Source: Loktanella sp. 3ANDIMAR09
Lineage (GTDB): Bacteria > Pseudomonadota > Alphaproteobacteria > Rhodobacterales > Rhodobacteraceae
Assembly (NCBI RefSeq): GCF_001420005.1
Contig: NZ_LJAK01000002.1
Coordinates: forward strand, 372,001-436,000
Direction of reading: 5' to 3'
DNA length: 64,000 bases
The translations under genes were made by a program, and so were the position numbers. The notes under the pieces were generated by a model. It saw only the letters and a list, made by a program, of their open reading frames with translations, did not search any database and was not told the DNA's origin. This document shows, piece after piece, positions 6,132 to 58,513 of this stretch (positions within the stretch are counted from its first letter, which is position 1; each line of letters opens with the position of its first letter).

Positions 6132-6134
6132 CCG

Positions 6135-6845: not shown

Positions 6846-6885
6846 GCTATCCAACGCGGCGCGGACTGCAAAGGTTGCAGTCAAA

Positions 6886-8178: not shown

Positions 8179-8436
8179 GTCGGGTCCTCACTTGTGCTGC
8201 GCGCGGTATGCCCGATCACGCGACGATGGTGAAGGGGCTAGCGTGCAGCACCTGTCAGACCCGGGCAATATCGCGGTTTTCATCAAATTCGGGTCGCCAC
8301 CCGGTTGGCGCATCCGGTCATCCTTACTATATCGCGGCGAGGCACAAGCGAGCCTGTTGCCATTGCGGCACCTCGCTTCTAGTGTGCCGCGACTTTGACC
8401 CCCGGTGCTTTGCGCCGCCAACCCTGAGGAGCCGCC

Positions 8437-8718
8437 ATGGAAGGCATCGCATCCATCGTCCCGCTGTTTTTGATCTTTGGTATCATGTATTTCCTGCTGA
8501 TCCGTCCGCAGCAGAAAAAGCTGAAGGAACATGCCGCCATGGTCAGCGCGCTGCGCCGCGGCGATCAGGTCATCACGCAGGGCGGTATCGTCGGCAAGGT
8601 GACGGCCGTGCGCGAGGCGGAAAAGGAACTGGAAGTCGAAATCGCCGCTGGCGTGAAAGTGCGCGTGATCCAGTCCACCATCGCGACCGTGATCAACAAG
8701 ACCGAACCTGCCAAGTAA
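8437..8718 (+). CDS. yajC: Sec translocon accessory protein YajC
   Basis: A 93-residue protein with one N-terminal membrane helix (VPLFLIFGIMYFLLIRPQQK) followed by a small cytoplasmic domain with the GDQVITQGGIVGKV signature. YajC joins SecD and SecF in the holotranslocon. The ATG is preceded by a GAGGAG ribosome binding site. First gene of a nine-gene co-directional run that continues into secD (33 nt gap), secF and the ccm genes. Confidence 0.95.
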   Translation: MEGIASIVPLFLIFGIMYFLLIRPQQKKLKEHAAMVSALRRGDQVITQGGIVGKVTAVREAEKELEVEIAAGVKVRVIQSTIATVINKTEPAK

Positions 8719-8751
8719 GCGACCGCGCTTGATGGCCAAGGGGGCCTGTCC

Positions 8752-10380
8752 ATGCTGAATATCTCGCCGTTCCGGCAAGCGTTGATCTGGCTCACGGTGA
8801 CGGTGGGGCTGCTACTGGCCCTGCCGAACCTGTTCTACGACCGGGTTGAAACCTACAACGACGCGGTTGCGACCGGCGAAGACGCGACAGGCTGGCCATC
8901 GTTCCTGCCATCCAATCTGGTGAACCTTGGCCTTGACCTGCGGGGCGGTGCGCATCTGCTGGCAGAGGTGAACACCCCCGATGTCTACGCGTCCATCATG
9001 GACGCCACATGGCCCGAGGTGCGTGACGCATTGGCCGCCGAACGCGATACGGTCGGTTTCGTCACCCGCGAGGACAGCCCTGACGATATCCTTGTCGTGC
9101 GGATTTCCGAACCCGCCGGCGCGGCACGTGCCGCAGAAATCGTGCGCGGTCTGGCCCGCCCGATCCAGACCCTGACCGGTGCAGGATCAACCGACATCGA
9201 GGTCAGCACCAGCGGCCCCGTGCTGACGATCCAACTGTCGGACGCCGAAAAACAGGCGGTTGACGACCGCACGATGCAGCAAAGCCTCGAGATCATTCGC
9301 CGCCGCATCGACGAGGTCGGCACACGCGAACCCACGATCCAGCGTCAGGGCACCGACCGGATCCTGATCCAGGTGCCCGGTGTCGGGTCCAGCGCCGAGA
9401 TCATCGAACTGATCGGAACAACGGCACAGCTGACATTCCAGCAGGTGATCGGCCCGGCAGGCGCAGACGCGACCCCCGGCGTGGGTCAGGAAATCCTGCC
9501 GTCCATCGACGAACCGGGGGTGTTCTATATCCTTGATTCCGTGCCGGTCGTCACCGGCGAGGAACTGGTCGATGCACAGCCCGCGTTCGACCAGAACGGT
9601 CGTCCGGCCGTCAATTTCCGGTTCAACGTATCCGGTGCACGCAAATTCGGTGATTATACGCTGGATCATATCGGCACGCAGTTCGCCATCGTCCTCGATT
9701 CCGAGGTCATCAGCGCCCCGGTGATCCAGTCCCATATTCCGGGCGGGTCCGGTATCATCACGGGTAATTTCACGGTCGAGGAATCGACCAACCTTGCCGT
9801 GTTGTTGCGTGCCGGTGCGCTTCCGGCCTCGCTTGAATTTCTGGAAGAACGCACGATTGGCCCCCAGCTGGGTCAGGACAGCATCGACGCAGGCCAACGG
9901 GCCGCGATGGTGGGCGGTCTGCTGGTCATCGTGTTCATGGGCATGACCTACGGCCTGTTCGGTATTTTCGCCAATATCGCGCTGATCGTGAACCTGGGCC
10001 TGATCTTTGGCGTATTGTCGCTGATCGGGGCGACCCTGACATTGCCGGGCATTGCGGGCATCGTGCTGACCGTCGGCATGGCCGTGGATGCCAACGTGCT
10101 GGTGTTCGAACGCATCCGCGAGGAGTTGAAAACTGCCAAGGGTCCCGCCCGTGCCATCGAGCTGGGATATGAACGCGCACTGTCTGCGATCATTGACGCC
10201 AACATCACGACGCTGATTACGGCAGGCATTCTGTATTGGCTGGGGTCTGGTCCCGTGCGCGGCTTTGCCGTCACGCTGGGGCTGGGCATCATCACGTCGG
10301 TGTTCACCGCCATTTTCGTCACGCGCGCGTTGATCGTGCTGTGGTTCTCGCGCAAGCGTCCCAAGACAATCGAGGTCTGA
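8752..10380 (+). CDS. secD: protein translocase subunit SecD
   Basis: 542 residues. One N-terminal helix precedes a large periplasmic P1 domain that starts with the conserved GLDLRGGAHLLAEV phrase. A block of five helices follows from about residue 370, with the RND-type motifs GMAVDANVLVFERIRE and INANITTL-like DANITTLITAGILYW. SecDF uses the proton gradient to pull translocating chains through SecYEG on the periplasmic side. Stop and secF start are 4 nt apart. Confidence 0.97.
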   Translation: MLNISPFRQALIWLTVTVGLLLALPNLFYDRVETYNDAVATGEDATGWPSFLPSNLVNLGLDLRGGAHLLAEVNTPDVYASIMDATWPEVRDALAAERDTVGFVTREDSPDDILVVRISEPAGAARAAEIVRGLARPIQTLTGAGSTDIEVSTSGPVLTIQLSDAEKQAVDDRTMQQSLEIIRRRIDEVGTREPTIQRQGTDRILIQVPGVGSSAEIIELIGTTAQLTFQQVIGPAGADATPGVGQEILPSIDEPGVFYILDSVPVVTGEELVDAQPAFDQNGRPAVNFRFNVSGARKFGDYTLDHIGTQFAIVLDSEVISAPVIQSHIPGGSGIITGNFTVEESTNLAVLLRAGALPASLEFLEERTIGPQLGQDSIDAGQRAAMVGGLLVIVFMGMTYGLFGIFANIALIVNLGLIFGVLSLIGATLTLPGIAGIVLTVGMAVDANVLVFERIREELKTAKGPARAIELGYERALSAIIDANITTLITAGILYWLGSGPVRGFAVTLGLGIITSVFTAIFVTRALIVLWFSRKRPKTIEV

Positions 10381-10384
10381 TCCC

Positions 10385-11356
10385 ATGCGTATGCGCCTGA
10401 TCCCCGACGACACGAATATCAATTTCTTCAAATTCGCCAGCGTCACCTTTGGCGGCAGCATGGTGCTGCTGGTGCTGTCGATCGTGGCCTTCATGACCTT
10501 TGGCCTGAACTACGGGATCGATTTCCGTGGCGGCACGACGATCCGAACGGAAAGCACGCAGCCCGTCGATGTCAGCGCCTATCGGACTGCATTGGAGGCG
10601 TTGGAGCTGGGCGATGTCAGCATCACCGAGGTGTTTGACCCGACATTCCGCGCGGATCAATTCGTCGCATCCGTGCGTATTCAGGCGCAGGACGATGCGG
10701 AAAGCGTCGCGCAAAGCACCATTGACAGTGTCCGCACAGCCTTGCAGACCGTTGATCCCGAGGTCGACTTTACCTCTGTAGAGAGTGTCGGACCCAAGGT
10801 GTCCGGCGAACTCATTCGGTCGGCGGTCTTTGCTGTGATCGGTGCGCTGTCGGCAATCATCATCTACATCTGGCTGCGGTTCGAATGGCAATTTGCCGTC
10901 GGTGGCATCGTGGCGCTGGTCCATGATATCGGTCTGACCATCGGGTTGTTTTCGCTGCTGCAAATCCGGTTCGACCTCGCGATCATCGCGGCCCTGCTGA
11001 CCATCGTCGGCTATTCGATCAACGATACGGTCGTGGTGTTCGACCGCGTGCGGGAAAACCTGCGCAAGTACAAGGTCATGCCGCTGGTCGATGTGCTGAA
11101 CCTGTCCGCGAACGAAACCCTTGCGCGGACCATGATGACATCGGGCACGACGCTGCTGGCGCTCGTGGCACTGCTGGCGCTAGGTGGTGACGTGATCCGC
11201 GGGTTTGTTTTCGCCATTACCTGGGGCATCATTGTCGGCACCTATTCATCGATCTATGTGGCCAAGAACGTGGTGTTGATGCTGGGCGTCAAACGCGACT
11301 GGTCGAAAAAGAACCCCGCCACGGGCGGACGTTACGCGGATATCGAGGACAGCTGA
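10385..11356 (+). CDS. secF: protein translocase subunit SecF
   Basis: 323 residues with the SecF topology: one N-terminal helix, a small periplasmic domain beginning with GIDFRGGT, then five helices carrying VGYSINDTVVVFDRVREN and the TSGTTLLALVALLALGG region. It partners SecD. The TGA stop shares its last base with the ATG of the next gene, indicating translational coupling to the Mth938-like protein. Confidence 0.97.
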   Translation: MRMRLIPDDTNINFFKFASVTFGGSMVLLVLSIVAFMTFGLNYGIDFRGGTTIRTESTQPVDVSAYRTALEALELGDVSITEVFDPTFRADQFVASVRIQAQDDAESVAQSTIDSVRTALQTVDPEVDFTSVESVGPKVSGELIRSAVFAVIGALSAIIIYIWLRFEWQFAVGGIVALVHDIGLTIGLFSLLQIRFDLAIIAALLTIVGYSINDTVVVFDRVRENLRKYKVMPLVDVLNLSANETLARTMMTSGTTLLALVALLALGGDVIRGFVFAITWGIIVGTYSSIYVAKNVVLMLGVKRDWSKKNPATGGRYADIEDS

Positions 11357-45563: not shown

Positions 45564-45653
45564 GGACAGGTGGCCGAGTGGTCGAAGGCGCACGCCTGGA
45601 AAGTGTGTAGGCGGGAGACCGTCTCCAGGGTTCGAATCCCTGTCTGTCCGCCA
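45564..45653 (+). tRNA. tRNA-Ser (GGA)
   Basis: A complete 90-nt class II tRNA. The 7-bp acceptor stem GGACAGG pairs with TCTGTCC, followed by discriminator G and encoded CCA. The anticodon stem CACGC/GTGTG encloses the loop CTGGAAA (anticodon GGA, reading UCC and UCU). A long variable arm (GGCGGGAGACCGTCTCC) and T arm CAGGG-TTCGAAT-CCCTG are present. A recombinase remnant lies just downstream. Confidence 0.97.
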
Positions 45654-45742
45654 TAAATCTTTGGTTCAGCTTCTTGATTGCCTAATAATATTCATAAGTT
45701 AGGGTAGTTGGGGCGATGTGACATAACCGTTGCGCCTTGATT

Positions 45743-45774
45743 TGCTACCCATTTCGCACCACATCCTGCTACCC
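45743..45774 (+). repeat. direct repeats beside the dead integrase gene
   Basis: TGCTACCC occurs at 45743-45750 and again at 45767-45774, 24 bp apart. They lie between the tRNA-Ser(GGA) 3' end and the recombinase remnant, where arm-type integrase sites are often found. Eight-base matches alone are weak evidence. Confidence 0.3.
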
Positions 45775-45787
45775 GAGGGTTTCGGTG

Positions 45788-46684
45788 ATGTGCGATGTCG
45801 GACAACCTCACCTTACGCGGCAGACGTATTACCTGAAGCGGCGCGTGCCTGCGCGGTTTGCTGAAGTGGCGCCGCGGCCGGTCATCTGGCACAGCTTAAA
45901 AACAGATTCTCGCGCGATTGCGCTGTCGAAGGTGGAACGTGTTCGGGCGGGATACCTCGATGGATGGGAAGCGCGGCTTGCGGGGCGTGACGGCGACGCG
46001 GAGGCCCGGTTTCGGGCGGCGCGCGATCTGGCCGCGAGACAGGGTTACGCTTTTCTTTCTGCGGACTCGGTTGCAAATCTTGAACTGATCGATCTGCTGC
46101 GCCGCGTTGAGGCGACGCAGGCACCGTCCAATGACGTGCAGCCAGAGGTCGCGGAGGCGCTGTTGGGCGGCGTTGAAGAGCCCGGCCTGATGCTGTCCGG
46201 GCTTGTCGCGCATACCGAAGATATTGCGTCACATGACAACCGGTTCAAAAGCGCCCAGCAGATGCGGTTGTGGCGGAACCCGCGCATTCGTGCGGTTCGC
46301 AACTTGATCGAGGCGATTGGTGAAGATCGTCGGGTGGTGGACGTAACCGCGGTAGAAGCGTTGCAGCATCGTCGGCTATGGCAGGACAGATTGAAAAGCG
46401 GAAAGCTGAAGGTCGCCTCTGCCAACAAGGATTTCCACTATATCGCAGGCATGCTGCGACGGTTTTAGGATGACCTTGGCCAAGCGGCACCGCCGCAACC
46501 TTATGCCGGTATCTCGATCCGTGACCGACATGCCAAACCGACCCGCAAGCGTGAAGTGCCCGTCGATTTGATCAAGGAGAAATGGTCGGCACCAGGTGCG
46601 TTGGACGGAATGAACGACGAAGCACGCGATATCCTATTGATCAGTATCGAGACAGGGTGCTGGAGTGCCCCCACTGAACGGTAG
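45788..46684 (+). pseudogene. tyrosine recombinase/phage integrase, broken
   Basis: The ATG at 45788 opens a frame with an integrase N-terminus of the DUF6538 type (TYYLKRRVPARFAEVAPRPV). An Ala/Glu-rich middle follows, then a core-binding-like helical region (ASANKDFHYIAGMLRRF). A TAG at 46466-46468 interrupts the frame, yet the same frame continues with PYAGISIRDRHAKPTRKR and ILLISIETGCW before a second TAG (46682-46684). In functional relatives the last phrase runs ETGCR, the Arg being the first catalytic residue. Homology stops right there, so the Arg, HxxR and Tyr are all lost. Confidence 0.85.
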
Positions 46685-46787
46685 TCCTGCCTGCAATCGC
46701 GCAGACTGCCATCGTCATCTCTTGGCTTTGAAACGCAATGCGTCCAGAAATTGGCTTTCGTATCGTTCATGTTTGACAGGGAACATC

Positions 46788-47240
46788 ATGCTGCCAGCCG
46801 TCACCACTGCATTCACGCCCTTTGCGTCGCTTTTCGGCGGCATCCTGATCGGGCTGTCGGCCGTCATGGTCATGGGGCTTTTCGGGCGCATTGCCGGAAT
46901 CACGGGGATCACGTCGGGCGGCATCAGCGTGGTGGACCCCACGCAGGCGACCGCGCGCGACTGGTCCTGGCGTCTGGCGTTTCTGGCAGGCCTGATTGCC
47001 GCGCCGCTGCTCGTGACGGCGGTTGTGGGCGCGGTGCCGCACAGTGTCCCGACAAACCTGTGGGGCATGGCGGCAGCGGGTTTGATCGTCGGCACCGGCA
47101 CCGCACTGGGCTCCGGCTGCACTTCGGGTCACGGCGTCTGCGGGTTGGCACGCCTGTCCAAGAGGTCCGCTGTTGCCGTGCTGACATTCATGGCCTTTGC
47201 CTTTGTCACCGTTTTCATCATGCGTCACGTCTGGGGCTAA
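46788..47240 (+). CDS. YeeE/YedE family transporter component, N half
   Basis: Start at the ATG at 46788 with CAGGGA upstream. 150 residues, four helices, with the conserved GSGCTSGHGVCGLARLSKRS motif, whose Cys residues in YeeE relay thiosulfate through the channel. It pairs with the following gene as a split two-gene form of YeeE/YedE. Proposed role: uptake of thiosulfate or another sulfur compound. Confidence 0.88.
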   Translation: MLPAVTTAFTPFASLFGGILIGLSAVMVMGLFGRIAGITGITSGGISVVDPTQATARDWSWRLAFLAGLIAAPLLVTAVVGAVPHSVPTNLWGMAAAGLIVGTGTALGSGCTSGHGVCGLARLSKRSAVAVLTFMAFAFVTVFIMRHVWG

Positions 47241-47243
47241 AAA

Positions 47244-47663
47244 ATGCGGATTCTCTTCGGTCTTTTGTCAGGTCTTGTCTTTGGTCTTGGCCTCGTGATT
47301 TCGGGCATGTCGGACCCGGCCAAGGTTCTGAATTTCCTTGATGTGTTTGGTGCCTGGGACCCGTCGCTTGCGTTTGTGATGGGTGGGGCGAGCGTGACGG
47401 CATTCATCGGTTATCGTCTGGTCTGGCGCAGACCGGCCCCAGTTTTGATGCAGACATTCGATATGCCCGACACCACGCGGGTTGATGCACCGTTGCTGAC
47501 CGGGGCCGCATTGTTCGGGATTGGCTGGGGCATCGGCGGTTTTTGTCCGGGTCCGGCCTGGACCGCGCTGACATTCGCGGCACCGGGGACATTGGTGTTC
47601 CTGCCGATGATGCTGATCGGTCTATATGCAGGCCGCCAGATCAAGGCACGCATGCGCGCCTGA
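47244..47663 (+). CDS. YeeE/YedE family transporter component, C half (DUF6691)
   Basis: 139 residues starting 3 nt after its partner. Four helices. The N-terminal motif GLVFGLGLVISGMSDPAKVLNF (here split by a short gap for length) and the later GIGWGIGGFCPGPAW carry the conserved Cys of the second half. With the gene before it, it should form a complete YeeE-type sulfur-compound carrier. Confidence 0.88.
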   Translation: MRILFGLLSGLVFGLGLVISGMSDPAKVLNFLDVFGAWDPSLAFVMGGASVTAFIGYRLVWRRPAPVLMQTFDMPDTTRVDAPLLTGAALFGIGWGIGGFCPGPAWTALTFAAPGTLVFLPMMLIGLYAGRQIKARMRA

Positions 47664-47947
47664 ATCCGCGAAAAATAATACGAAATCATCAGGTTGCGGA
47701 TGTTTCGCGTCTTTAGCATTCGGGCCGATGTTGCGATTTTTTCCGGCGGGGCGATGAATCCGCCAGGTTGATCCTGTTTGATACCTTTGGGTTTTGACCG
47801 TCCTGGCCGGTCAATCAACCGTGACCCCGGCGTTGATCCGATGGGGGCGGGCGCTAGCTCCCCGATCAGAGGCGGCACGCAGCTGTGCCGCAAAGTCAAA
47901 TGCCACGCGCCCCCTTGGGCTGTGTCGGCAAACGAAAGGATCACCCC

Positions 47948-50254
47948 ATGAAGGACCACGCTGCAACGCAAGGTGCCTGCCCATTTCGCGGAACGCGGAT
48001 CGGTGGCGCACAGGGTTCAGAGCCGAATGTAAACCACTGGTGGCCGAACCGGCTCAAGGTCGAGGCACTGTATCAGGACCCGCCGCAGGCCAATGCCCTG
48101 GGCCGCGATTTCGACTATGCCGCGGCCAACGCCAAGATCGACCACAAGGCGCTGTGGGAAGACGTGCGCGCCTTTTTGCATACGCCCGTCGATTGGTGGC
48201 CATCGGATTACGGTCACTATGGCCCGCAGATGAACCGCATGTCGTGGCATTCGGCCGGCACATACCGGATCGCTGACGGGCGTGGTGGCGCGGGCGAAGG
48301 GATGCAGCGCTTTGCGCCGATCAATTCCTGGTGGGACAACGGCAACACGGACAAATCGCGCCGGCTGCTGGCCCCGATCAAGGCGAAATACGGTGCCGGT
48401 CTGAGCTGGGCCGACCTGATCGCACTGGCCGGCACCGTCGCGCTGGAGGACATGGGTCTGCCGGTGCAGGGTTTTGCCTATGGCCGCGAGGACGCATGGT
48501 CAGCCGATGTGAACACTTACTGGGGACCCGAAGGCTGGTTCGGCAAACCGCCGTCCGAACAGCCCGCAGACCCGCAGCTGGGTCACCCCGAACAGATGGT
48601 CAATCGCGGTCTGCGCTGGGAAGGCGGACCAAAGGACGACCACTATGATCTGGAAAACCCGCTTGCTGCGTCCCACCAGTCGCTGATCTACGTCGATCCC
48701 GAAGGTCCGGGCGGCAACGGCGACCCGATGGATGCCGCGCGTGACATCCGCGAAACCTTTGCGCGGATGGCGATGAACGACGAAGAAACGCTGGCACTTG
48801 TGGCCGGGGGGCACGCCTTTGGTAAATCGCACGGTGCCGTGCCTGCCTCTGAGATTGGTGGCGCACCGGAAATCGCCAAGATGTCCGAGCAGGGTCTGGG
48901 CTGGTCGAACCCGGTCGGATCCGGCAACGCCGAACATACCATGACGAACGGGATCGAAGGGTCCTGGACGCCGAACCCGACGCAATGGGACAACGATTAT
49001 CTGACCAACCTGTTCAAATTCGAATGGGAACAGACCAAATCGCCCGCCGGTGCGCTTCAGTGGACGCCGACCGATCCTGACGCGCCGAAAACGCCTGATG
49101 CCCATCTGCCGGGCGTCATGAACCCGCTGATGATGATGACCACGGATATCGCGTTCAAGGTCGATCCCGCCTACCGCAAGATCGCCGAAAGGTTCCTTGA
49201 GGATTTCGACTATTTCACCGAAACCTTTTCCAAGGCGTGGCATAAACTGATGCACCGTGATCTGGGTCCGACCTCGCGTTGGCTGGGGCCGGATCAGGGC
49301 GGCACGTTCATCTGGCAGGACCCGGTGCCCGAGGTTGACCACCCGCTGATCGACGCGACGCAGATTGCCGACCTCAAGGCGCGTGCGCTGGATCTGGATG
49401 TCGCTGCGACCGATCTGATCGCGGCGGCATGGGCTGCGGCATCGACATACCGCGACAGCGACAAACGCGGTGGTGCCAACGGTGCGCGGGTGCAATTGGC
49501 ACCGCAGCGTGGCTGGGCCGTGAACAACCCCGCCCGTCTGGACCGTGTTCTGGATGCGCTGACCGGGTTGAAATCGGACTTTGACGCAGAGGGCGCGGCA
49601 AAGGTGTCGATGGCTGACCTGATCGTGCTGGCCGGATGCGCCGGGGTTGAGGCCGCCGCCAAGGCAGGCGGACACGACGTGACGGTGCCGTTCGTGCCGG
49701 GCCGCACTGATGCCACGGCCGACATGACCGACGACGAAAGCTTTGAATGGCTGCGCCCGGTTGTGGACGGTTTCCGAAACTATGTGGACGATGCGGTGGG
49801 CTACAACGTTCCGCCCGAACAGATCGCGCTGGACAAGGCGGCGTTGCTGTCGCTGTCGGCACCGGAGTGGACTGCATTGACCGGTGGCCTGCGCGTGCTG
49901 GATCAGAACTGGGACGGGTCGGACAAGGGCGTGTTCACGGATCGCCCCGGCACGCTGTCGGCTGATTTCTTTCGTGAACTGGTGTCCACGGATCTGGACT
50001 GGCGGCCTGAAACGGACGCTGAAACGGCCTTTGATCTGGTGGATCGTGCGACCGGCCAGACGCGCTGGCATGCCACGCGTCTGGATCTGGTCTTCGGTGC
50101 GAATGCCGAGTTGCGCCAGATTTCAGAACTGTATGCAGGTGTCGATGGGGAAGGGTATTTTGTCGATACCTTTGTGCGCGCCTGGCACAAGGTGATGATG
50201 CTGGACCGTTTCGATGCCAAGGCCGAACGCAAGGCCGCAGTCAGCGACTGCTGA
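47948..50254 (+). CDS. katG: catalase-peroxidase KatG
   Basis: Start at the ATG at 47948. 768 residues, the usual two-domain KatG. Distal haem site: Arg97, Trp100, His101 in [11 protein letters not shown]. Proximal His in [10 protein letters not shown]. The Met-Tyr-Trp adduct partners are probably Trp100, Tyr in [12 protein letters not shown] and Met in the following region. It removes H2O2 by catalase and peroxidase reactions. No oxyR homologue is adjacent, and 285 bp separate it from the YeeE pair. A hairpin follows at 50281. Confidence 0.96.
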
Positions 50255-50280
50255 TCGCGCGCGGGCGCATGAAAACGCAG

Positions 50281-50303
50281 GACGCCGCCCCGGGGGCGGC
50301 GTC
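50281..50303 (+). terminator. hairpin after katG
   Basis: A perfect 10-bp stem, GACGCCGCCC (50281-50290) and GGGCGGCGTC (50294-50303), with a 3-nt loop, 26 nt after the katG stop. No T run follows, so termination strength is uncertain. Confidence 0.6.
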
Positions 50304-50386
50304 CATGCATCTGGCCGTCAGGATCACACTGACATGAAACGTGCCGCCGCCAGGGCAGGGCACAAACAGAATCACAAAGGGACGTG

Positions 50387-50400
50387 TGGCGGAGAGACAG
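50387..50400 (+). repeat. left att-like direct repeat
   Basis: TGGCGGAGAGACAG, identical to the end of tRNA-Ser(CGA) at 55297-55310; flanking bases differ on both sides (GTG/TCC here, AAA/GGA there). Confidence 0.8.
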
Positions 50401-50473
50401 TCCGAAAATTCATACACATCAATGACTTAAATCTTTGATATTGCGAGAAAAGTAGTTCTGCAGTGTTGCATTT

Positions 50474-50497
50474 TGTGCAGCAAAATGTGCAGCAAAA
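50474..50497 (+). repeat. tandem 12-bp repeats, candidate arm-type integrase sites (left)
   Basis: TGTGCAGCAAAA occurs twice without a gap (50474-50485 and 50486-50497). Three degenerate copies lie at the other end of the island (55173-55209) in the same orientation. Confidence 0.6.
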
Positions 50498-50670
50498 AGT
50501 TTCTTAGATCGTGATCATGTGACATTCAAGCCAGAGAAACATTGTCTGGTAATGGACCGATCACCTTCAATGTGGGCCATACCAGCCATTTAACCTTATC
50601 GCAGCAAACGTCGACTCCGAGCCCAAGATGACCGATGCTGCGCCTGACACGAACGTCCGCTTTGGGAATT

Positions 50671-51129
50671 TCAGAAATCTAGCGGAGCACCGTCCTTCAC
50701 TTCCTTCATGACAAAAAACGTTCGAGCCTGTCTGACTTCTGGCAACGCAATGAGGACCTTTCCGTGGAAGCTATTAAAGTCTGCCATGTCGGCTACTCGG
50801 ATTTTCAACAGGTAGTCGAAGTCACCGGCGACGAGGTGACAATCGAGGATCATTGGCAGATCAAGGACTGCTGCCTCGAATTTGGCAAAACTCTCGGGCG
50901 TTGAGCGATCCAGCACAACACCAACCATCGCAATCGCGCCCAGCCCCACGCTTTCAGGGTTCACAACCGCCCGAACGGTTTGAATATAGCCATCATCAAA
51001 CAGCCTTTGGGTGCGCCTATGGCACGTCGCAGGGCTGACGTTCACTGCCATAGCAAGGTCTGCGTTGCTCATTCTGCCGTCCGCTTGCAACAAGCGAAGC
51101 ATCCGTTTGTCGATTCGATCCAGGGGCAT
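50671..51129 (-). CDS. acdR: Lrp/AsnC-family regulator of ACC deaminase (AcdR-like)
   Basis: 152 residues from the ATG at 51129 (MPLDRIDKRML); a longer in-frame start at 51174 is possible. N-terminal winged HTH (NADLAMAVNVSPATCHRRTQRL) and a C-terminal RAM/ligand domain with the GDFDYLLKIRV motif. In several ACC-deaminase bacteria an Lrp-type gene, acdR, sits divergently beside acdS and controls it; the same arrangement is seen here, with a palindrome between the two starts. The symbol rests on this context. Confidence 0.85.
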   Translation of the reverse strand: MPLDRIDKRMLRLLQADGRMSNADLAMAVNVSPATCHRRTQRLFDDGYIQTVRAVVNPESVGLGAIAMVGVVLDRSTPESFAKFEAAVLDLPMILDCHLVAGDFDYLLKIRVADMADFNSFHGKVLIALPEVRQARTFFVMKEVKDGAPLDF

Positions 51130-51204
51130 GGTGAGAGATTCTTCCGTTATCGGGTCCCATAGTGGAATTACCACGCTGAATTCTCCGATCCAATAATCTT
51201 CTTG

Positions 51205-51227
51205 TCAAAGTTTTGATACAACTTTGA
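51205..51227. promoter_or_regulatory. palindromic operator between acdR and acdS
   Basis: Perfect 8-bp arms TCAAAGTT (51205-51212) and AACTTTGA (51220-51227) with a 7-nt spacer, in the 153-bp divergent intergenic region, 56 nt before acdS. Size and symmetry suit an Lrp-type dimer; AT-rich like many Lrp sites. Confidence 0.6.
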
Positions 51228-51282
51228 AAGCACCCCTCACGCGACCTTTGTTACTCTCGACAGTAGAAAAAAGGAGCACACC

Positions 51283-52296
51283 ATGCTGGAAAAATTTGAA
51301 CGCTATCCTCTCACTTTTGGTAAAACGCCGATCGAGCATCTTCCCCGTCTGACCCAGACCCTCGGCGGCAAAGTCGAGATTTACGCCAAGCGTGAGGATT
51401 GCAACTCGGGCCTCGCCCAAGGCGGCAACAAGCTTCGCAAGCTTGAATACATCGTGCCGGATGCAATTGCGTCGGGGGCCGATACACTGGTGTCTATTGG
51501 CGGCGTTCAATCCAACCATACGCGCATGGTCGCGGCGACGGCGGCCAAGATTGGGATGAAATGCCGGTTGGTGCAAGAGGCGTGGGTGCCTCATGATGAT
51601 GCGGTCTATGACCGTGTCGGCAACATTATGATGACCCGCCTGATGGGCGCGGACAGCCGTTTGGTGGACGATGGCTTCGATATCGGCATCCGCACCAGCT
51701 ATGAAAAAGCCATTGAGGATGTGAAGAAGGAAGGGGGCAAGCCCTACGGCATCCCCGCCGGTGCGTCTGTGCATCCGTATGGTTGCCTTGGCTATGTGGG
51801 CTTTGCCGAAGAAGTCCGCGAACAAGAGGCAGAGCTTGGGTTCAAGTTCGACTACATCGTGGTTTGTGTTGTCACCGGATCGACCCAAGGCGGCATGATC
51901 GTCGGCTTTAAAAAAGATGGTCGCGCGGATCGTGTGATCGGCATCGATGCGTCAGGCACGGTTGATCAGACACGCGCACAGGTCAAAGAGATTGCCAATA
52001 AGACCTGCGATTTGATCGAGTGCGGCTATTCGATTGAAGACGAGGACATTCATATCAACCCCGACTACGCCTATCCAGCCTACGGCGTGCCAAGCGCCGA
52101 GACCAATGATGCGATCCGTCTGGCCGCGCGCACGGAGGCGATGATCACGGACCCTGTCTATGAAGGTAAATCCATGCAGGGGATGATCGACCTGATTAAG
52201 AAGGGCTTCTTCCCCGACGGATCAAAAGTGCTCTACGCGCATCTGGGCGGTCAGCCTGCGCTGAACGGCTACAGCTACACCTACCGTAACGGCTGA
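51283..52296 (+). CDS. acdS: 1-aminocyclopropane-1-carboxylate deaminase
   Basis: 337 residues of a fold-type II PLP enzyme after an AAGGAG site. PLP lysine is Lys50 ([12 protein letters not shown]). The residues that separate true ACC deaminase from D-cysteine desulfhydrase are Glu294 ([11 protein letters not shown]) and Leu321 ([13 protein letters not shown]), equivalent to Glu295 and Leu322 of the Pseudomonas enzyme; both are present. Reaction: ACC to 2-oxobutyrate and ammonia. It gives a nitrogen source and lowers ethylene precursor in plants or algae. Followed 63 nt later by the AceE-like gene. Confidence 0.95.
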
Positions 52297-52359
52297 TCCC
52301 ACTTGCTGCGCCGCTGAACGGGCGGCGCGGCGATCCAATTTCCCCGCGAGGCGTCAAAC

Positions 52360-54756
52360 GTGACTGAGCAAAACTCCCACCTGAAAACCGTGGAACAACG
52401 GCTGCTGTGGCTGTCCCACTGGATGATCCACCATGCCAACCACATCCGCCCCAAGGCGGACGGGATCAAGGTTGGCGGGCATCAGGCGTCGTCTGCATCC
52501 ATGGTGTCGATCATGACCGCGCTTTATTTTGGCGTGCTGCGGCCCGAAGACCGCGTGGCGGTCAAACCCCATGCTTCGCCCATTTTCCACGCCATGCAGT
52601 ACCTCATGGGCAACATGACACGCGAGAAGATGGAGAACTTTCGCGGGCTTGGCGGTGTGCAAAGCTATCCGTCGCGCACCAAGGACATTGATGATGTGGA
52701 TTTTTCGACCGGTTCTGTTGGGCTTGGAGTGGCAATTACGTCCTTTGCGTCGTTGATACAGGATTATGTGCAGGCCAAATCGTGGGGTAGAGACCTGCCG
52801 CTTGGCCGCATGATCGCGCTCATGGGCGACGCCGAACTGGACGAAGGCAACATCTATGAATGCCTGCAAGAGGGCTGGAAAAACGATCTGCGCAATACGT
52901 GGTGGGTGATCGATTACAACCGCCAATCGCTTGACGGGATCGTGCGCGAAGGGTTGTTCGAGAGGGCCGAGAAGGTCTTTGATGCCTTCGGCTGGGACGT
53001 GGTGCGCGTAAAATACGGCACCTTGCAACGGGCCGCTTTTGCCGAACCCGGTGGCGACAAGTTGCAGGCATGGATCGATGATTGCCCCAACCAGCTTTAT
53101 TCCGCGCTGACCTATATGGGCGGGGCCGTTTGGCGCAAACATTTGATGGACGATCTGGGCGATCAAGGTGATGTCACGGCGTTGCTGGATGCACGCAACG
53201 ATGACGACCTTGCCGCTTTGATGGAAAATCTCGGCGGCAACTGCGTGGACACGATGGCCGAAACATTCGCCGCCATTGACCATGACCGCCCCGTCTGTTT
53301 CCTCGCCTATACGATCAAAGGCTGGGGCACGCCGATTGCAGGCCACAAAGACAACCACGGCGGCCTGATGAGCAAGGCGCAGATGGCCGATTGGCAGGCG
53401 GATATGGGTGTGGATACGGGCGATGAGTGGGAGCCGTTGGCGACTGTGAGCGACCCCGCCGCGTTCCAAAAACACCTCAAGACGGTTCCGTTTTTCGCCA
53501 AGGGTTCGCGCCGATATACTGACGATGCGATCAGCGTACCCAAGATCGACATTGCCAGTGACCGTGAAATCTCAACCCAAATGGGGTTTGGCAAAATCCT
53601 TGATGATCTGTCAAAAGGCGACAGCGAATTGGCGTCACGGATCGTCACCACGTCGCCCGATGTCACCGGCACGACGAACCTTGGCCCATGGGTTAACAGG
53701 CGCAAGCTGTTCGCACGCAAAGCGCAGGCTGACACCTTCAAAGACCACAAAATCCCGTCAACCGCGAAATGGGAATTCGACCCCGAAGGCCAGCATATCG
53801 AGCTTGGCATCGCCGAGATGAACCTGATGCTGCTCTTGGGCGCTGCGGGGCTGTCGCATTCGCTGTTTGGCAAACGCTTGATCCCGATTGGCACGGTCTA
53901 TGATCCCTTCGTGTCCCGCGGCCTCGATGCGTTGAACTACGCCTGCTACCAAGACGCGCGGTTCATGTTGGTGGGCACCCCGTCCGGCGTCACGTTGGCC
54001 CCCGAAGGCGGGGCGCACCAATCCATCGCCTCGCCCCTGATCGGCATGTCACAGGACGGGCTGGCCGCGTTTGAACCTGCATTCGTGGATGAGCTTTCGG
54101 TCATCATGGAATGGGCTTTTGATTACATGCAACGCAGTGGCGATGGCGACCCTGACGAGCGCACATGGCTGCGCGATGAAACCGGCGGGTCAGTCTATCT
54201 GCGGCTGACAACCAACCCGATTGAACAACCGGGCAAGCGGGTTGACAATGGCTTTCGCCAAGGTGCGATTGACGGGGCGTACTGGCTGCGCAAACCCGGT
54301 CCAAACTGCGCAATCGTATTCGCGTACCAAGGGGCCGTCGCCCCCGAAGCCATCGCCGCAGCGGGTATCATCGGCGAATACCGCCGCGACGTCGGTGTGC
54401 TGGCCGTCACCTCCGCAGACCGTCTGAATGCCGGTTGGACGGCGGCCCAACGCGAACGCGCGCGGGGCAATCCAGAGGCCGTGAGCCATGTTGAGACGCT
54501 GCTGAATACACTGCCAAACACCTGCACAATCGTCACCGTGATCGACGGCCACCCTGCAACGCTGTCATGGCTTGGGGCCGTCGCAGGCCACAAAACCATC
54601 CCACACGGCGTTGAACACTTCGGCCAAACCGGCACGATAAATGACCTCTACCGCCACTTCCGCATCGATCGCCACTCGCTTGCTGAATCTGTCAGCGAAC
54701 TGACGACAGGCGACCGATCGCCATCTGCGGCTTGGAATACCCTTTTGCCATCGTGA
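52360..54756 (+). CDS. AceE-like 2-oxoacid dehydrogenase E1 / transketolase-fold protein
   Basis: 798 residues from a GTG. The thiamine-diphosphate motif reads GDAELDEGN (residues 156-164) with the closing Asn at DYNRQSLDG (185-193), the arrangement of homodimeric pyruvate dehydrogenase E1 (GDGEMDEP...CNLQRLDG) and not of ordinary transketolase. N-terminal GGHQASSASMVSIMTALYFG and PHASPIFHAMQYLMG also follow AceE. AceE is near 890 and transketolase near 660 residues, so length is intermediate. Downstream of acdS it may act on 2-oxobutyrate. No E2 or E3 gene is near. Confidence 0.75.
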   Translation: MTEQNSHLKTVEQRLLWLSHWMIHHANHIRPKADGIKVGGHQASSASMVSIMTALYFGVLRPEDRVAVKPHASPIFHAMQYLMGNMTREKMENFRGLGGVQSYPSRTKDIDDVDFSTGSVGLGVAITSFASLIQDYVQAKSWGRDLPLGRMIALMGDAELDEGNIYECLQEGWKNDLRNTWWVIDYNRQSLDGIVREGLFERAEKVFDAFGWDVVRVKYGTLQRAAFAEPGGDKLQAWIDDCPNQLYSALTYMGGAVWRKHLMDDLGDQGDVTALLDARNDDDLAALMENLGGNCVDTMAETFAAIDHDRPVCFLAYTIKGWGTPIAGHKDNHGGLMSKAQMADWQADMGVDTGDEWEPLATVSDPAAFQKHLKTVPFFAKGSRRYTDDAISVPKIDIASDREISTQMGFGKILDDLSKGDSELASRIVTTSPDVTGTTNLGPWVNRRKLFARKAQADTFKDHKIPSTAKWEFDPEGQHIELGIAEMNLMLLLGAAGLSHSLFGKRLIPIGTVYDPFVSRGLDALNYACYQDARFMLVGTPSGVTLAPEGGAHQSIASPLIGMSQDGLAAFEPAFVDELSVIMEWAFDYMQRSGDGDPDERTWLRDETGGSVYLRLTTNPIEQPGKRVDNGFRQGAIDGAYWLRKPGPNCAIVFAYQGAVAPEAIAAAGIIGEYRRDVGVLAVTSADRLNAGWTAAQRERARGNPEAVSHVETLLNTLPNTCTIVTVIDGHPATLSWLGAVAGHKTIPHGVEHFGQTGTINDLYRHFRIDRHSLAESVSELTTGDRSPSAAWNTLLPS

Positions 54757-54890
54757 AAGTGTAAAAGCGGAGATTGGCGCGGATGCAGCGAATGGCAACT
54801 TGGTCCGCATTGCAGGCTTTGACTCGGATTACGCCGAAGGTCTGCAACCGTCGCTTTCGTGACAACCTCCCAACCTTCCCCTAGCCTGGC

Positions 54891-55010
54891 ATGATGTCGA
54901 GCCAAGCGTGGACAGATGCTGAAAATGACCTGATCGTCGCGGACTATTTCGCGATGCAGTCCGACGATGTGGCAGGCCGTCCCTATAACAAGGCCGAGCA
55001 TCGGCGGCTG
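54891..55010 (+). pseudogene. N-terminal fragment, possible DUF3883/HNH-type restriction protein
   Basis: About 40 residues (SSQAWTDAENDLIVADYF, then AMQSDDVAGRPYNKAEHRR) resemble the start of proteins with DUF3883 or HNH-like domains from restriction systems, whose next residues normally include an EFKHQN-type phrase. Here the match ends at about 55010 and the sequence passes into the antisense of an integrase remnant, so the gene is truncated by a junction. Confidence 0.5.
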
Positions 55011-55153
55011 GCCCGATCCGCCTTGCCATGGGCGATTGTCTCCGAGTCGGTATGCAGGCTGATCCAGACGGTTTCGCGCGGCTCGATCCCCCGATACCGG
55101 CGCGGGACGCGGCGGCGGAGGTGGTAGAGACGGCCTCTTTTTGCGATGCTCAT
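54983..55153 (-). pseudogene. integrase N-terminal remnant
   Basis: From an ATG at 55153 the minus strand reads SIAKRGRLYHLRRRVPRR then YRGIEPRETVWISLHTDSE and KADRA, the N-terminus of a DUF6538-type tyrosine recombinase. After KADRA (near 55012) the match is lost and a stop comes at 54983. It lies 144 nt from the tRNA-Ser(CGA) 3' end and reads away from it, the normal position for the integrase of a tRNA-targeted island. Core and catalytic domains are missing. Confidence 0.75.
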
Positions 55154-55172
55154 GGCGGAAATCCTCCGCGTT

Positions 55173-55209
55173 TGTGCAGCAAATTGTGCCGTAAAAAAAT
55201 GCAGCAAAT
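55173..55209 (+). repeat. degenerate 12-bp repeats, candidate arm-type sites (right)
   Basis: TGTGCAGCAAAT (55173-55184), TGTGCCGTAAAA (55185-55196) and AATGCAGCAAAT (55198-55209). The stretch 55171-55189 matches 50472-50490 at 18 of 19 positions, in the same orientation. It sits between the integrase remnant and the tRNA. Confidence 0.6.
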
Positions 55210-55296
55210 CAAGCGGATCAAGAGCCGCCATAAGCGCGAAAATGCCGAATTTCGCCCTACTATCAGCGCGTTACGCAACAGCGATCTTGGGGTAAA

Positions 55297-55386
55297 TGGC
55301 GGAGAGACAGGGATTCGAACCCTGGGAACCCTTGCAGGCTCAACGGTTTTCGAGACCGCCCCGTTCGACCACTCCGGCACCTCTCC
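55297..55386 (-). tRNA. tRNA-Ser (CGA)
   Basis: A complete 90-nt class II tRNA on the minus strand. Acceptor stem GGAGAGG pairs with TCTCTCC; discriminator G and CCA are encoded. Anticodon loop CTCGAAA gives anticodon CGA (reads UCG). Long variable arm and T arm CAGGG-TTCGAAT-CCCTG are present. The 3' terminal 14 nt are repeated at 50387-50400, marking it as the integration site of the adjacent island. Confidence 0.97.
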
Positions 55387-55518
55387 GCACCAAGGGTCAA
55401 CGGTGGGGCGTGTAATCGGCCTTGCGCGGGTCTGCAAGCCCCAAGATGCGGCCTTTGTCCTTGTCTGTAGCCGATGGTCGGTTACCTATTTGAAATAGCC
55501 AATCCGAAGGACCTCTTC

Positions 55519-56346
55519 ATGTTTTCAGCACTTCGACAGTCCACGCTCATAGCGGCCCTCGTCTTTGGCAGCGCGACGGTGGTCACCGCGCAGGATATCG
55601 ACCCGGTCTATGATGCGCTGCGCATGGATGAACTTGTCACCATCCTGCGTGCCGAGGGGTTGCATTATGGCGATGACATCGCTGCCGAATTGTTCAACGG
55701 TCCGGTCAGTGGCGCGTGGGATGGCGCGGTGGACGCGGTATTCGACACCACGGTCATGGCCGACACCTTGCGCAGCGGTTTGGCCGCAGGGCTGGACGAT
55801 ACTGATACCGATGCGATCGTGGCGTTCTACGACAGCCCATTGGGGCAGCAGATCACCACGTTGGAACTGTCCGCACGCGAGGCGTTTCTGGACGAGACCA
55901 TTGAAGAGGCGGCAACAGAGGCCGCGGCCATCGCGGTGGCGGATGGCGGCCCGCGCATCGATCAGATGAACGCCTATCTGGCGGCCAATGATGTCATCGA
56001 ACAGGAAGTCACATCGACCATGAACGCAAGCGTCGCGTTCTACATGGGGCTGATGGACGGTGGCGCGCTGCCACCGTCACTGACCGAGGACGAGGTCCTG
56101 CGCGACGTTTACAGCCGTCAGGACGAAATCCGGCGCGACGTGACCTCGCGGGTCTATGCGTTTCTCTATCTTGCCTACGATCCGCTGAGCGATGCGGATA
56201 TCGACGCCTATATTACTTTCATGGAATCCCAGCCCGGTCAGGCGCTGAGCCGGGCGACGTATGCGGCCTTTGACGCCTACTATATCGACGCATCACGGCA
56301 ATTGGCGCTGGCGGCGGCCGCTCAGATGCGGGTGTCTGACCTGTAG
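55519..56346 (+). CDS. DUF2059 secreted protein
   Basis: 275 residues from the ATG at 55519. A signal peptide (MFSALRQSTLIAALVFGSAT then VVTA-Q) precedes an all-helical, acidic mature protein. The C-terminal part contains the DUF2059-like phrase DADIDAYITFMESQPGQALSRAT, and a second related unit occurs earlier (DTDAIVAFYDSPLGQQITTLE), so the protein is an internal duplication of this motif. Function unknown; periplasmic. Confidence 0.82.
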   Translation: MFSALRQSTLIAALVFGSATVVTAQDIDPVYDALRMDELVTILRAEGLHYGDDIAAELFNGPVSGAWDGAVDAVFDTTVMADTLRSGLAAGLDDTDTDAIVAFYDSPLGQQITTLELSAREAFLDETIEEAATEAAAIAVADGGPRIDQMNAYLAANDVIEQEVTSTMNASVAFYMGLMDGGALPPSLTEDEVLRDVYSRQDEIRRDVTSRVYAFLYLAYDPLSDADIDAYITFMESQPGQALSRATYAAFDAYYIDASRQLALAAAAQMRVSDL

Positions 56347-56347
56347 A

Positions 56348-56677
56348 TCAGCGCCCCCAGACCAGCAGGGCGTTGCCCAGTGCGGCAGGGCTGGCGGCGT
56401 ATAGCCCGGTATCCGATTGCAACTGAATGATGCGGGCAGGGCGGTCAGCCGCAGGAACCGAGGCTGCGTCGAAAGCGCGGGTCAGCGCCGGGCCACCGCC
56501 CGCCGCGATGTCGGCGTTGATCGCGGGGAATTCGGATTTCACCGCCAGTTCAACTGCGCCACGCGTCTGATCGGGCACTGTCGGACGCGACAGCTTACCT
56601 GTAAACGGGTTCTGAAACGCCACGCCCGCCGGGGCGCAAGCCGTGAGAAAGATCAGGCAGATCGGTCCTGCGCGCAT
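56348..56677 (-). CDS. small predicted lipoprotein, 109 aa
   Basis: The ATG at 56677 follows AAAGGGA. The N-terminus MRAGPICLIFLTACAP is a lipoprotein signal with lipobox LTAC (Cys14). The mature part is short, with AVELAVKSEFPAINADIAAGGGPALTRAF split over two helices and ending VWGR. I do not recognise the family. Convergent with the DUF2059 gene (1-nt gap) and divergent from rplU. Confidence 0.7.
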   Translation of the reverse strand: MRAGPICLIFLTACAPAGVAFQNPFTGKLSRPTVPDQTRGAVELAVKSEFPAINADIAAGGGPALTRAFDAASVPAADRPARIIQLQSDTGLYAASPAALGNALLVWGR

Positions 56678-56857
56678 GGTATTTCCCTTTGCCGTGGGGT
56701 TGACTTGATCCCCGGTTGATCAGATAAGCCGCCATCCGCGCAAGTCTCTTGTGTCGGACCTACATGAATTCGCCCAAGGGCGCGCTGTTGACAGGTGGCT
56801 TGGCCGCAAATGCCCCGCGGGGAACCTGACCGACGCGAAAGACAAAAGGAAGACCAT

Positions 56858-57571
56858 ATGTTCGCGGTTATGAAAACCGGTGGCAAACAGTATCGCGTCC
56901 AGTCGGGCGACGTTCTGCGTGTCGAAAAGCTGAACGCCGAAGCTGGCGATGAAATCCAGTTCAACGAAATCCTGATGGTTGGCGACACCGTCGGTGCGCC
57001 GCTGGTCGAAGGTGCCGGCGTCAAGGCAACCGTGATCGACCAGATCAAGGGCCCCAAGACCATCAACTTCGTCAAGCGTCGTCGTAAGCACGGTTCGCAG
57101 CGCCGCAAGGGTCACCGTCAGCAGCTGACGCTGGTGCGCATCGGCGACATCCTTGAATCCGGTGCAGACAAGTCCGGGATCAAGGCTGCCGTGTCCGGCC
57201 GTGGCATTGCATTCGCAATCGCCGGTGTTGCCGCAGCAGCTGGTGCTGCCGCCGCCTATGCCGCGACCCGCAGCGACGACAAGGCGGAGGCCGCGCCGAA
57301 AAAGGCCAAGCCGTCCGCCACTGAAAAAGCGGCCCCCAAGGCCAAGACCGCCAAAGAGGCATCTGTCACCGGCGGTGCGGACGACCTCAAGCAGCTGTCG
57401 GGCGTAGGCCCCGCGCTGGAAAAGAAACTGCATGCCGAAGGTATCACGACCTTTGCGCAGATCGCTGCATGGACCGATGCGGACGTCGAAAAATTCGGCG
57501 AGCTGCTGTCGTTCAAGGGCCGCATCGAGCGTGAAGGCTGGATCGAGCAAGCAAAAGAACTTTCGAAGTAA
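56858..57571 (+). CDS. rplU: 50S ribosomal protein L21 with C-terminal extension
   Basis: Start at the ATG at 56858 after AAAGGAAG. Residues 1-104 are a normal L21 (MFAVMKTGGKQYRVQSGDVL, VKRRRKHGSQRRKGHRQ). An extension to residue 237 follows. It has an Ala-rich hydrophobic stretch (116-136, GIAFAIAGVAAAAGAAAAY), a Lys/Ala linker, and a helix-hairpin-helix-like domain (174-237, LSGVGPALEKKLHAEGITTF). The last part is common in Rhodobacteraceae L21. L21 sits in domain I/II of the 50S exterior. A TTGACA at 56788-56793 is a possible -35 element. Confidence 0.95.
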   Translation: MFAVMKTGGKQYRVQSGDVLRVEKLNAEAGDEIQFNEILMVGDTVGAPLVEGAGVKATVIDQIKGPKTINFVKRRRKHGSQRRKGHRQQLTLVRIGDILESGADKSGIKAAVSGRGIAFAIAGVAAAAGAAAAYAATRSDDKAEAAPKKAKPSATEKAAPKAKTAKEASVTGGADDLKQLSGVGPALEKKLHAEGITTFAQIAAWTDADVEKFGELLSFKGRIEREGWIEQAKELSK

Positions 57572-57583
57572 GGAGACCGACAC

Positions 57584-57853
57584 ATGGCACACAAAAAAGC
57601 AGGCGGCTCATCCCGTAACGGACGCGACTCAGCTGGTCGTCGTCTTGGCGTCAAGAAGTTCGGCGGCGAAGTCGTCATTCCTGGCAACATCATCATGCGT
57701 CAGCGCGGCACGAAAATGTGGCCGGGCGCAGGCGTCGGCATGGGCAAGGATCACACGATCTTTGCGACCGTCGAAGGCAACGTTCAGTTCCACAAGGGCC
57801 TGAAGGGGCGGACATTCATTTCCGTCCTGCCCGTGGCCGAGGCCGCCGAGTAA
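57584..57853 (+). CDS. rpmA: 50S ribosomal protein L27
   Basis: 89 residues, 12 nt after rplU. N-terminal [18 protein letters not shown] and [11 protein letters not shown] are standard. The N-terminal tail of L27 reaches the peptidyl-transferase centre. No Firmicutes-type cleavable leader is present. rplU-rpmA pairs are nearly universal. The strong terminator at 57876 closes the operon. Confidence 0.98.
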
Positions 57854-57875
57854 GCGCCAGACCCATCGACAATTT

Positions 57876-57906
57876 GGGGGACCGGCGCGCAGCCGGTCCC
57901 CCTTTT
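57876..57906 (+). terminator. rplU-rpmA intrinsic terminator
   Basis: A perfect 11-bp stem, GGGGGACCGGC (57876-57886) and GCCGGTCCCCC (57892-57902), 5-nt loop, then TTTT. It begins 22 nt after the rpmA stop. Confidence 0.9.
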
Positions 57907-57914
57907 GCGTTTTC

Positions 57915-57934
57915 GGACCCCGGTTCCGGGGTCC
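57915..57934 (+). repeat. second hairpin upstream of the GNAT genes
   Basis: A perfect palindrome, GGACCCCGG (57915-57923) and CCGGGGTCC (57926-57934), separated by TT. It lies between the rpmA terminator and the GGGAGGAG site of the next gene. It could be a back-up terminator or a 5' mRNA stabiliser. Confidence 0.55.
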
Positions 57935-57955
57935 ACATCTTTGGGAGGAGATGTC

Positions 57956-58513
57956 ATGACCTACGCACCTGTCACGCCGGTTCCGCCCGCCGTGCAACCG
58001 ACCATTCCGTCGGACCGTTTCGTGTTGCGTCCGCTGCAAACCTCGGATGTTGGCCTGATCAGCATGTATGCGGCCGATCCCGTTCTGGCACGCGGCACCC
58101 GGTCGATCCCGCACCCGCTGCCGGACGGGGTGATTGCCGCGATGATCGCGCGTGCGTCGCAGCCCGGCCGGGTCGAGGACGTTTGGGCCATGGACGGATC
58201 GCGCGCAGGCCACGCCGAGGTGTTGGGCCTTGTCAGCCTTGTGCGGATGGATCGCGCCCAGTCAGAGGTGTTTTTCTGGGTCGCCCCCGCATTCTGGAAT
58301 GTGGGTTTCGCGACCGAGGCCTTGCGCGCCTTGCTGACGGCCAATCCACATGGGGCGCACCAGTATTTCGCGGAAAGCTTTCAGGACAACCCCGGTTCGG
58401 CCCGCGTGCTGACGAACTGCGGCTTTGATTATCTGGGCGATGCAGAGGCGTTCAGCCTCGCACGGAATGCGGTGGTGCCGACATGGACCTACATGATGAA
58501 AACCGGGCTCTAG
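57956..58513 (+). CDS. GNAT acetyltransferase 1 (RimJ/RimL type)
   Basis: Start at the ATG at 57956 after GGGAGGAG. 185 residues. Strand beta-1 reads FVLRPLQTSDVGLISMYAAD, and the acetyl-CoA region FFWVAPAFWNVGFATEALRA then LTNCGFDYLGD fits the RimJ/RimL GNAT type, though the pyrophosphate loop is weak (WNVGFATEA for Q/RxxGxG/A). First of three tandem GNAT genes; overlaps the next by 31 nt. Confidence 0.85.
   Translation: MTYAPVTPVPPAVQPTIPSDRFVLRPLQTSDVGLISMYAADPVLARGTRSIPHPLPDGVIAAMIARASQPGRVEDVWAMDGSRAGHAEVLGLVSLVRMDRAQSEVFFWVAPAFWNVGFATEALRALLTANPHGAHQYFAESFQDNPGSARVLTNCGFDYLGDAEAFSLARNAVVPTWTYMMKTGL

Follow-up and report, generated by a model that had tools for sequence, protein, structure and literature searches.

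The island and its edges

The window analysed here is the whole stretch of 64,000 nucleotides from Loktanella sp. 3ANDIMAR09. Towards its right-hand side it holds a 4.9 kb island that begins near katG and ends in a tRNA-Ser(CGA) gene, with the following features in window coordinates:

50387..50400, + strand: distal att core, a copy of the tRNA-Ser(CGA) 3' end; exact 14-mer and left edge of the insert against the empty site
50473..50496, - strand: two distal arm-type repeats in a 12-bp register, 72 bp from the core; same gap in 5 of 5 elements with a located far end
50671..51129, - strand: acdR, Lrp/AsnC-type regulator of 152 aa, divergent from acdS; Pfam AsnC_trans_reg and HTH_AsnC-type
51283..52296, + strand: acdS, predicted ACC deaminase of 337 aa; TIGR01274 above cut-off, match to 1rqx
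52360..54756, + strand: MdeB-like (AceE-like) E1 protein of 798 aa; Transketolase_N and PDH_E1_M, neighbours of relatives
54894..55007, + strand: 5' remnant of a PDC-S36 / NOV_C gene; 94.7% to residues 1-38 of a 278-aa protein of Loktanella sp. PT4BL
55008..55011, no strand: internal-deletion junction; about 2.96 kb present here in PT4BL
55011..55153, - strand: 5' remnant of a DUF6538 integrase gene; DUF6538 profile, PT4BL alignment
55172..55208, - strand: three proximal arm-type repeats, two of them eroded, from 88 bp off the core; repeat search
55297..55310, + strand: proximal att core; exact 14-mer, point of flank overlap in the empty site
55297..55386, - strand: tRNA-Ser(CGA), intact target gene; ARAGORN

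The 14-mer TGGCGGAGAGACAG is present as exact copies at 50387-50400 and 55297-55310, with 4.9 kb between them. ARAGORN places tRNA-Ser(CGA) at 55297-55386 on the minus strand, the right-hand 14-mer being its 3' end. Exact matching and ARAGORN bear out the perfect repeat around 4.9 kb proposed by an earlier, sequence-only reading of this DNA, and each island boundary is marked by a direct repeat containing the 3' end of the tRNA, as in tRNA-integrated genomic islands. The 14-mer had also been expected to be infrequent elsewhere, and the whole 3.67 Mb genome holds just these two exact matches. When one mismatch is allowed, one further window copy appears at the 3' end of tRNA-Ser(GGA) (45640-45653); the corresponding shuffle control for the window gives a mean of 0.03 matches, and no shuffle has three. 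The copy near katG was described as lying in an AT-rich stretch, and GC there is about 0.51 against 0.618 for the window. The integrase N-terminus postulated near the tRNA matches DUF6538 (37.1 bits, cut-off 27), with about 143 bp between its ATG and the tRNA end.

Composition had been put forward as a check for foreign origin. GC and GC3 lean weakly that way (GC3 is 0.61-0.71 in the three cargo genes and 0.68-0.75 in six other window genes), and we rejected composition as proof of such an origin, the GC3 difference being mild.

A second DUF6538 integrase remnant follows tRNA-Ser(GGA) elsewhere in the window (45564-46754; ORF 45737-46465). Across 197 aligned residues it shares 39% identity with the PT4BL integrase, and the sister genome described below has about 375 bp of unrelated DNA in its place.

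Empty site, longer copy and age of the island

The closest of the eight other genus genomes in this region is a sister genome, G003. Window positions 46754-50400 align with positions 4937-8582 of its 14.0 kb stretch (L034) and 55297-58000 with 8569-11273, and the katG-side and tRNA-side flanks overlap there by exactly 14 bp. This stretch holds a single core copy, and the window flanks joined in silico reproduce 240 of 274 alignment columns across the site. The predicted empty site, with katG joined to the tRNA-Ser(CGA)-DUF2059 region on one 14-mer, is thus present in G003 as the uninterrupted, single-repeat site of a close relative that marks a tRNA-integrated genomic island, and the insert boundaries can be read directly from the alignment. 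acdS is detected at E <= 1e-60 in one of nine genus genomes, which is the window's own genome, and in none of the eight others. In another genus member (G007, L041:2881-9080), the same tRNA-Ser(CGA) lies with a different tyrosine integrase (L041:3196-4278), and the 3' part of the tRNA recurs about 6.1 kb away as a duplicate of 60+ bp, which indicates that the site has been reused.

One of the 80 listed acdS loci, all from named genomes, has this DUF6538 integrase: that of Loktanella sp. PT4BL (L107). It matches window 50387-55008 at 96.8% and 55011-55316 at 82.3%, and between these two blocks it has about 2.96 kb missing from the window. The acd element in this longer known form is about 7.9 kb. 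The extra stretch comprises the remainder of a 278-aa gene and the remainder of the integrase gene. The 278-aa protein carries NOV_C and matches the full profile of the PADLOC candidate PDC-S36 (1.8e-132; protein 1-277, profile 1-279 of 280). Full-length PDC-S36 is absent from the window, where only the part matching residues 1-38 remains; the peptide of this remnant has no Pfam match, and the gene is named via its intact PT4BL relative. Because the integrase and PDC-S36 genes converge, one deletion can have cut both in the window.

The window integrase remnant, beside the tRNA, is 88% identical to the N-terminus of the PT4BL integrase. Neither copy has an intact integrase able to move it now, as the gene is truncated in the window and has one in-frame stop in PT4BL, where the catalytic domain scores 24.1 bits with Pfam Phage_integrase, under the curated cut-off of 27.1. 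There are sound grounds for thinking that integrase loss fixed the island, and the present window copy would be immobile. No relaxase, the mark of an integrative mobilizable element, was matched in the window island or the PT4BL locus, and no transfer genes were seen in these two acd-bearing copies. The proposal that acdR-acdS and the AceE-like gene travelled as joint mobile cargo holds up: the same three genes lie in the longer element, and because PT4BL has them with a nearly complete integrase they can be assigned to one element. The PT4BL contig has three core-like sites, namely the tRNA-Ser(CGA) 3' end and both acd-element ends, one of which has a core with one base different. An unrelated 10.9 kb element with its own DUF6538 integrase sits between the acd element and the tRNA, and this arrangement is a stacking of elements at one tRNA.

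We estimated dN/dS by NG86. Between the window and PT4BL, dS is 0.076 for acdS, 0.031 for the E1-like gene and 0.048 for acdR, against 1.60 for obgE, 1.36 for DUF2059 and 2.00 for rplU; horizontal spread is directly visible in this comparison. No katG was detected in the compared stretch of PT4BL. Between the window and G003, dS is 0.20 (obgE), 0.35 (DUF2059), 0.14 (rplU) and 0.29 (katG), and as island dS to PT4BL is below core dS to the sister, the shared island is younger than the split from G003. The low cargo dN to PT4BL (acdS 0, acdR 0.003, E1-like 0.010) indicates a conserved cargo beside a decaying integrase.

Identity to PT4BL is uneven along the island. Most 200-bp steps across the cargo show 97.5-100% identity, with 93.5% and 95.5% in two steps that contain intergenic DNA, against 87-94% at the left end, 88.5% in the stretch after the E1-like gene and 82% at the integrase end. 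As the element ends are less alike than the cargo, the history may be mosaic, and either constraint or a swap of cargo from one chassis to another may account for the gap. The difference (mostly 97.5-100% against about 82-94%) is what would be expected had an older, decayed integrase island received the acd operon through homologous recombination or transposition. We regard such a later arrival as unlikely, however, since the chassis is shared with PT4BL and carries these three genes there at the matching position, flanked by the core, arm repeats and PDC-S36 gene that also flank them in the window.

Less probable still is an island ancestral in the genus that the sister lost by precise excision. 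Excision between the cores would likewise leave a single 14-mer, and only nine genus genomes could be searched, but the island dS to PT4BL of 0.03-0.08 lies below the 0.14-0.35 of four core genes to the sister and acdS is missing from all eight other genus genomes at the threshold above, so that this history is already disfavoured. That the repeat is a chance match in ordinary chromosome, for which no point was counted in favour, can be dismissed, given a sister site that ends exactly at the 14-mer, the restriction of TGGCGGAGAGACAG to the two island ends genome-wide, the PT4BL copy and a geometry that matches at both ends.

Attachment layout and related elements

Relatives of the PT4BL integrase were detected in 49 of 295 family genomes (E <= 1e-40); seven of the 49 are 88-93% identical, each in a different genus. 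We took the best ten loci by score as a sample of sibling elements (L225-L234). ARAGORN places a tRNA next to the integrase in seven of the ten, six of them tRNA-Ser (four GCU, one TGA, one CGA) and one tRNA-Arg, and none in L225, L226 and L229. These three loci have the core and arm repeats in the usual layout despite the missing tRNA call; perhaps another element is stacked between, as in PT4BL. Far att cores were not found in the fetched stretches of eight siblings (L225, L228-L234). A small ORF lies next to the integrase in all ten loci, and PDC-S36 is present in five. The load of L227 is a UvrD-like helicase gene with the reverse transcriptases Drt3a and Drt3b, and it lies between copies of a 19-bp repeat whose start is within tRNA-Ser(GCU). 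A MobA/VirD2-DUF3363 relaxase in L226 and L230 (2 of 10) makes some siblings look mobilizable. The IMG/VR record IMGVR_UViG_2894590789_000001 (L239) starts with a 93% identical integrase and has a relaxase, distal arm repeats and an att core. It is filed as viral (55.7 kb contig), and the stretch looks like an integrative element and not like a phage.

The arm repeat TTGTGCAGCAAA has three copies genome-wide, two at the island ends, and its reversed control has one. A shortened form with one mismatch occurs four times in the window against 1.27 expected, and 4 of 100 shuffles reach four; the shortened repeat is thus not rare in the window, and the evidence lies in its position, not its count. 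Three TTTGCTGCACAA-like repeats in a 12-bp register start 86-88 bp inside the core in nine of the ten sibling loci (88 bp in eight, 86 bp in one) and are absent in L234. On the other side, the nearest distal repeat is exactly 72 bp from the far core in all five elements for which that core was located (window, PT4BL, L226, L227 and L239); in each of them except PT4BL another repeat follows 12 bp beyond it. Taking L227 as reference, the repeats of seven loci are 83-100% identical against 53-76% for the 88-bp spacers, a comparison that leaves out the window and PT4BL, whose register is one base off. In the window both distal repeats are still present, as are all three proximal ones, of which two have eroded. 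This geometry is observed directly; its natural reading from the sequences is that of arm-type integrase sites around a core at the tRNA 3' end, to which the integrase would bind.

On balance, we lean towards a distinct family of Rhodobacteraceae elements that occurs in several genera and prefers tRNA-Ser. One conserved integration module (a DUF6538 integrase, the adjoining small ORF, and two arms, 72 bp, the 14-bp core, 88 bp and three arms) would be combined with exchangeable loads, among them DRT3 reverse transcriptases, PDC-S36, a relaxase or a complete ACC-catabolic operon. One deletion of the integrase and the defence gene could then domesticate the load, the attachment ends persisting. 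A literature search over titles and abstract openings returned no description of such a family, nor of an ACC deaminase on such an element in Rhodobacteraceae or Roseobacter; it found nothing for DUF6538, and the name PDC-S36 did not occur in the papers listed.

The ACC-catabolic operon and its proposed history

The acdS product scores 555.6 bits with the equivalog TIGR01274 (cut-off 392) and matches the solved ACC deaminase 1rqx at 3.2e-149; on these sequence matches it is a predicted ACC deaminase. The E1-like protein does not qualify as AceE, the homodimeric pyruvate dehydrogenase E1: it scores 181.5 bits with the aceE equivalog, far under the cut-off of 859.9, and its alignment with E. coli AceE starts at residue 29 against 94. 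It was detected in 98 of 394 family genomes (E <= 1e-80). Within flanks of about 1.5 kb, the best 29 loci outside the own genome have methionine gamma-lyase as neighbour in 17 cases, acdS in three and neither in nine. The E1-like gene is also directly downstream of acdS in 11 of the 80 listed acdS loci, of which one is truncated where its contig stops and another is fragmented, and several other loci end too early to tell.

ACC is the precursor of ethylene, and ACC deaminase and methionine gamma-lyase each release 2-oxobutyrate and ammonia. These products are given for methionine gamma-lyase in PMC2842291. The E1-like gene is thus linked to enzymes that produce 2-oxobutyrate, the linkage of an MdeB-type protein, and since both neighbours make this compound its product is probably an MdeB-type 2-oxobutyrate E1. 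The mde operon of Pseudomonas putida (Inoue et al. 1997, a study that PMC2842291 cites) reportedly encodes an MdeB that prefers 2-oxobutyrate. It has an Lrp-type regulator, a 2-oxobutyrate-releasing PLP enzyme and an E1-like protein, as in the island; the PLP enzyme there is methionine gamma-lyase, whereas the island has ACC deaminase, and the likeness is one of gene content. Our search for mdeB with ketobutyrate and pyruvate dehydrogenase found no literature.

Methionine gamma-lyase lies near the E1-like gene on annotated plasmids of Ruegeria pomeroyi DSS-3, Leisingera thetidis and Sulfitobacter mediterraneus, and not near it on an annotated Loktanella salsilacus plasmid. On the Leisingera thetidis plasmid pBMJM1_4 (L237), the E1-like and gamma-lyase genes adjoin two genes annotated as a dihydrolipoamide acetyltransferase family member and lpdA, whose products might complete a 2-oxobutyrate dehydrogenase complex. 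An 88% identical E1-like protein is encoded in a genus member that lacks acdS (G004:C51:66838-69183, L079), its gene being flanked by an Lrp-type gene and with neither acdS nor methionine gamma-lyase within the stretch compared. Yoonia sp. I 8.24 has acdR-acdS-E1-like in a second, different genomic setting, between tRNA-Gly(CCC) and a tail-like ORF (L108:6904-13069) that reads by eye like a fragment of a phage tail tape-measure gene. A tRNA-Gly att duplicate for this locus was rejected, as only the tRNA itself matched genome-wide with at most one mismatch. Among the plasmid matches listed, 6 of 349 cover at least 80% of the island and none exceeds 82.2% identity. acdS had no match in INPHARED phages (E <= 1e-20), and IMG/VR gave no pattern match.

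We consider it very likely that the island is an integrative element at tRNA-Ser(CGA) with an acdR-acdS-mdeB-like cargo that later underwent an internal deletion. A small element would have entered by site-specific recombination at the tRNA 3' end, duplicating 14 bp and bringing in the three genes; the route by which the DNA came into the cell is likewise inferred. The deaminase would convert ACC to 2-oxobutyrate and ammonia, the E1-like enzyme would probably take 2-oxobutyrate on towards propionyl-CoA, and the divergent Lrp-type regulator may govern the operon. A deletion of about 2.96 kb, itself plain from the PT4BL alignment, would then have removed the 3' parts of the integrase gene and of the candidate defence gene that converges with it, while the cargo and the two attachment ends stayed in place.

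The island resembles known tRNA-targeted islands and integrative (mobilizable) elements with tyrosine integrases in its tRNA 3'-end repeat, its tRNA-adjacent integrase, the empty site in a relative, the tandem stacking in PT4BL and the relaxase of some siblings. It differs from them in that the window copy is decayed, very small (4.9 kb) and of purely metabolic load. Carriage of acdS on integrative islands is already known from Mesorhizobium, whose symbiosis islands carry the gene (PMC4048297) and likewise move it as integrative islands; those are large, whereas here a small Rhodobacteraceae element has nothing but the three-gene operon left as its load. What is new is the particular element, its resolved history and an attachment layout common to elements with other loads.

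ACC catabolism can thus be followed in Rhodobacteraceae on a small mobile element whose longer relative, empty site, decay and attachment geometry are all resolved. Its acdS is tied to an E1-like partner that, judged from gene neighbourhood, probably handles its product. The defined attachment-site layout makes recombination directly testable and related elements findable by pattern.
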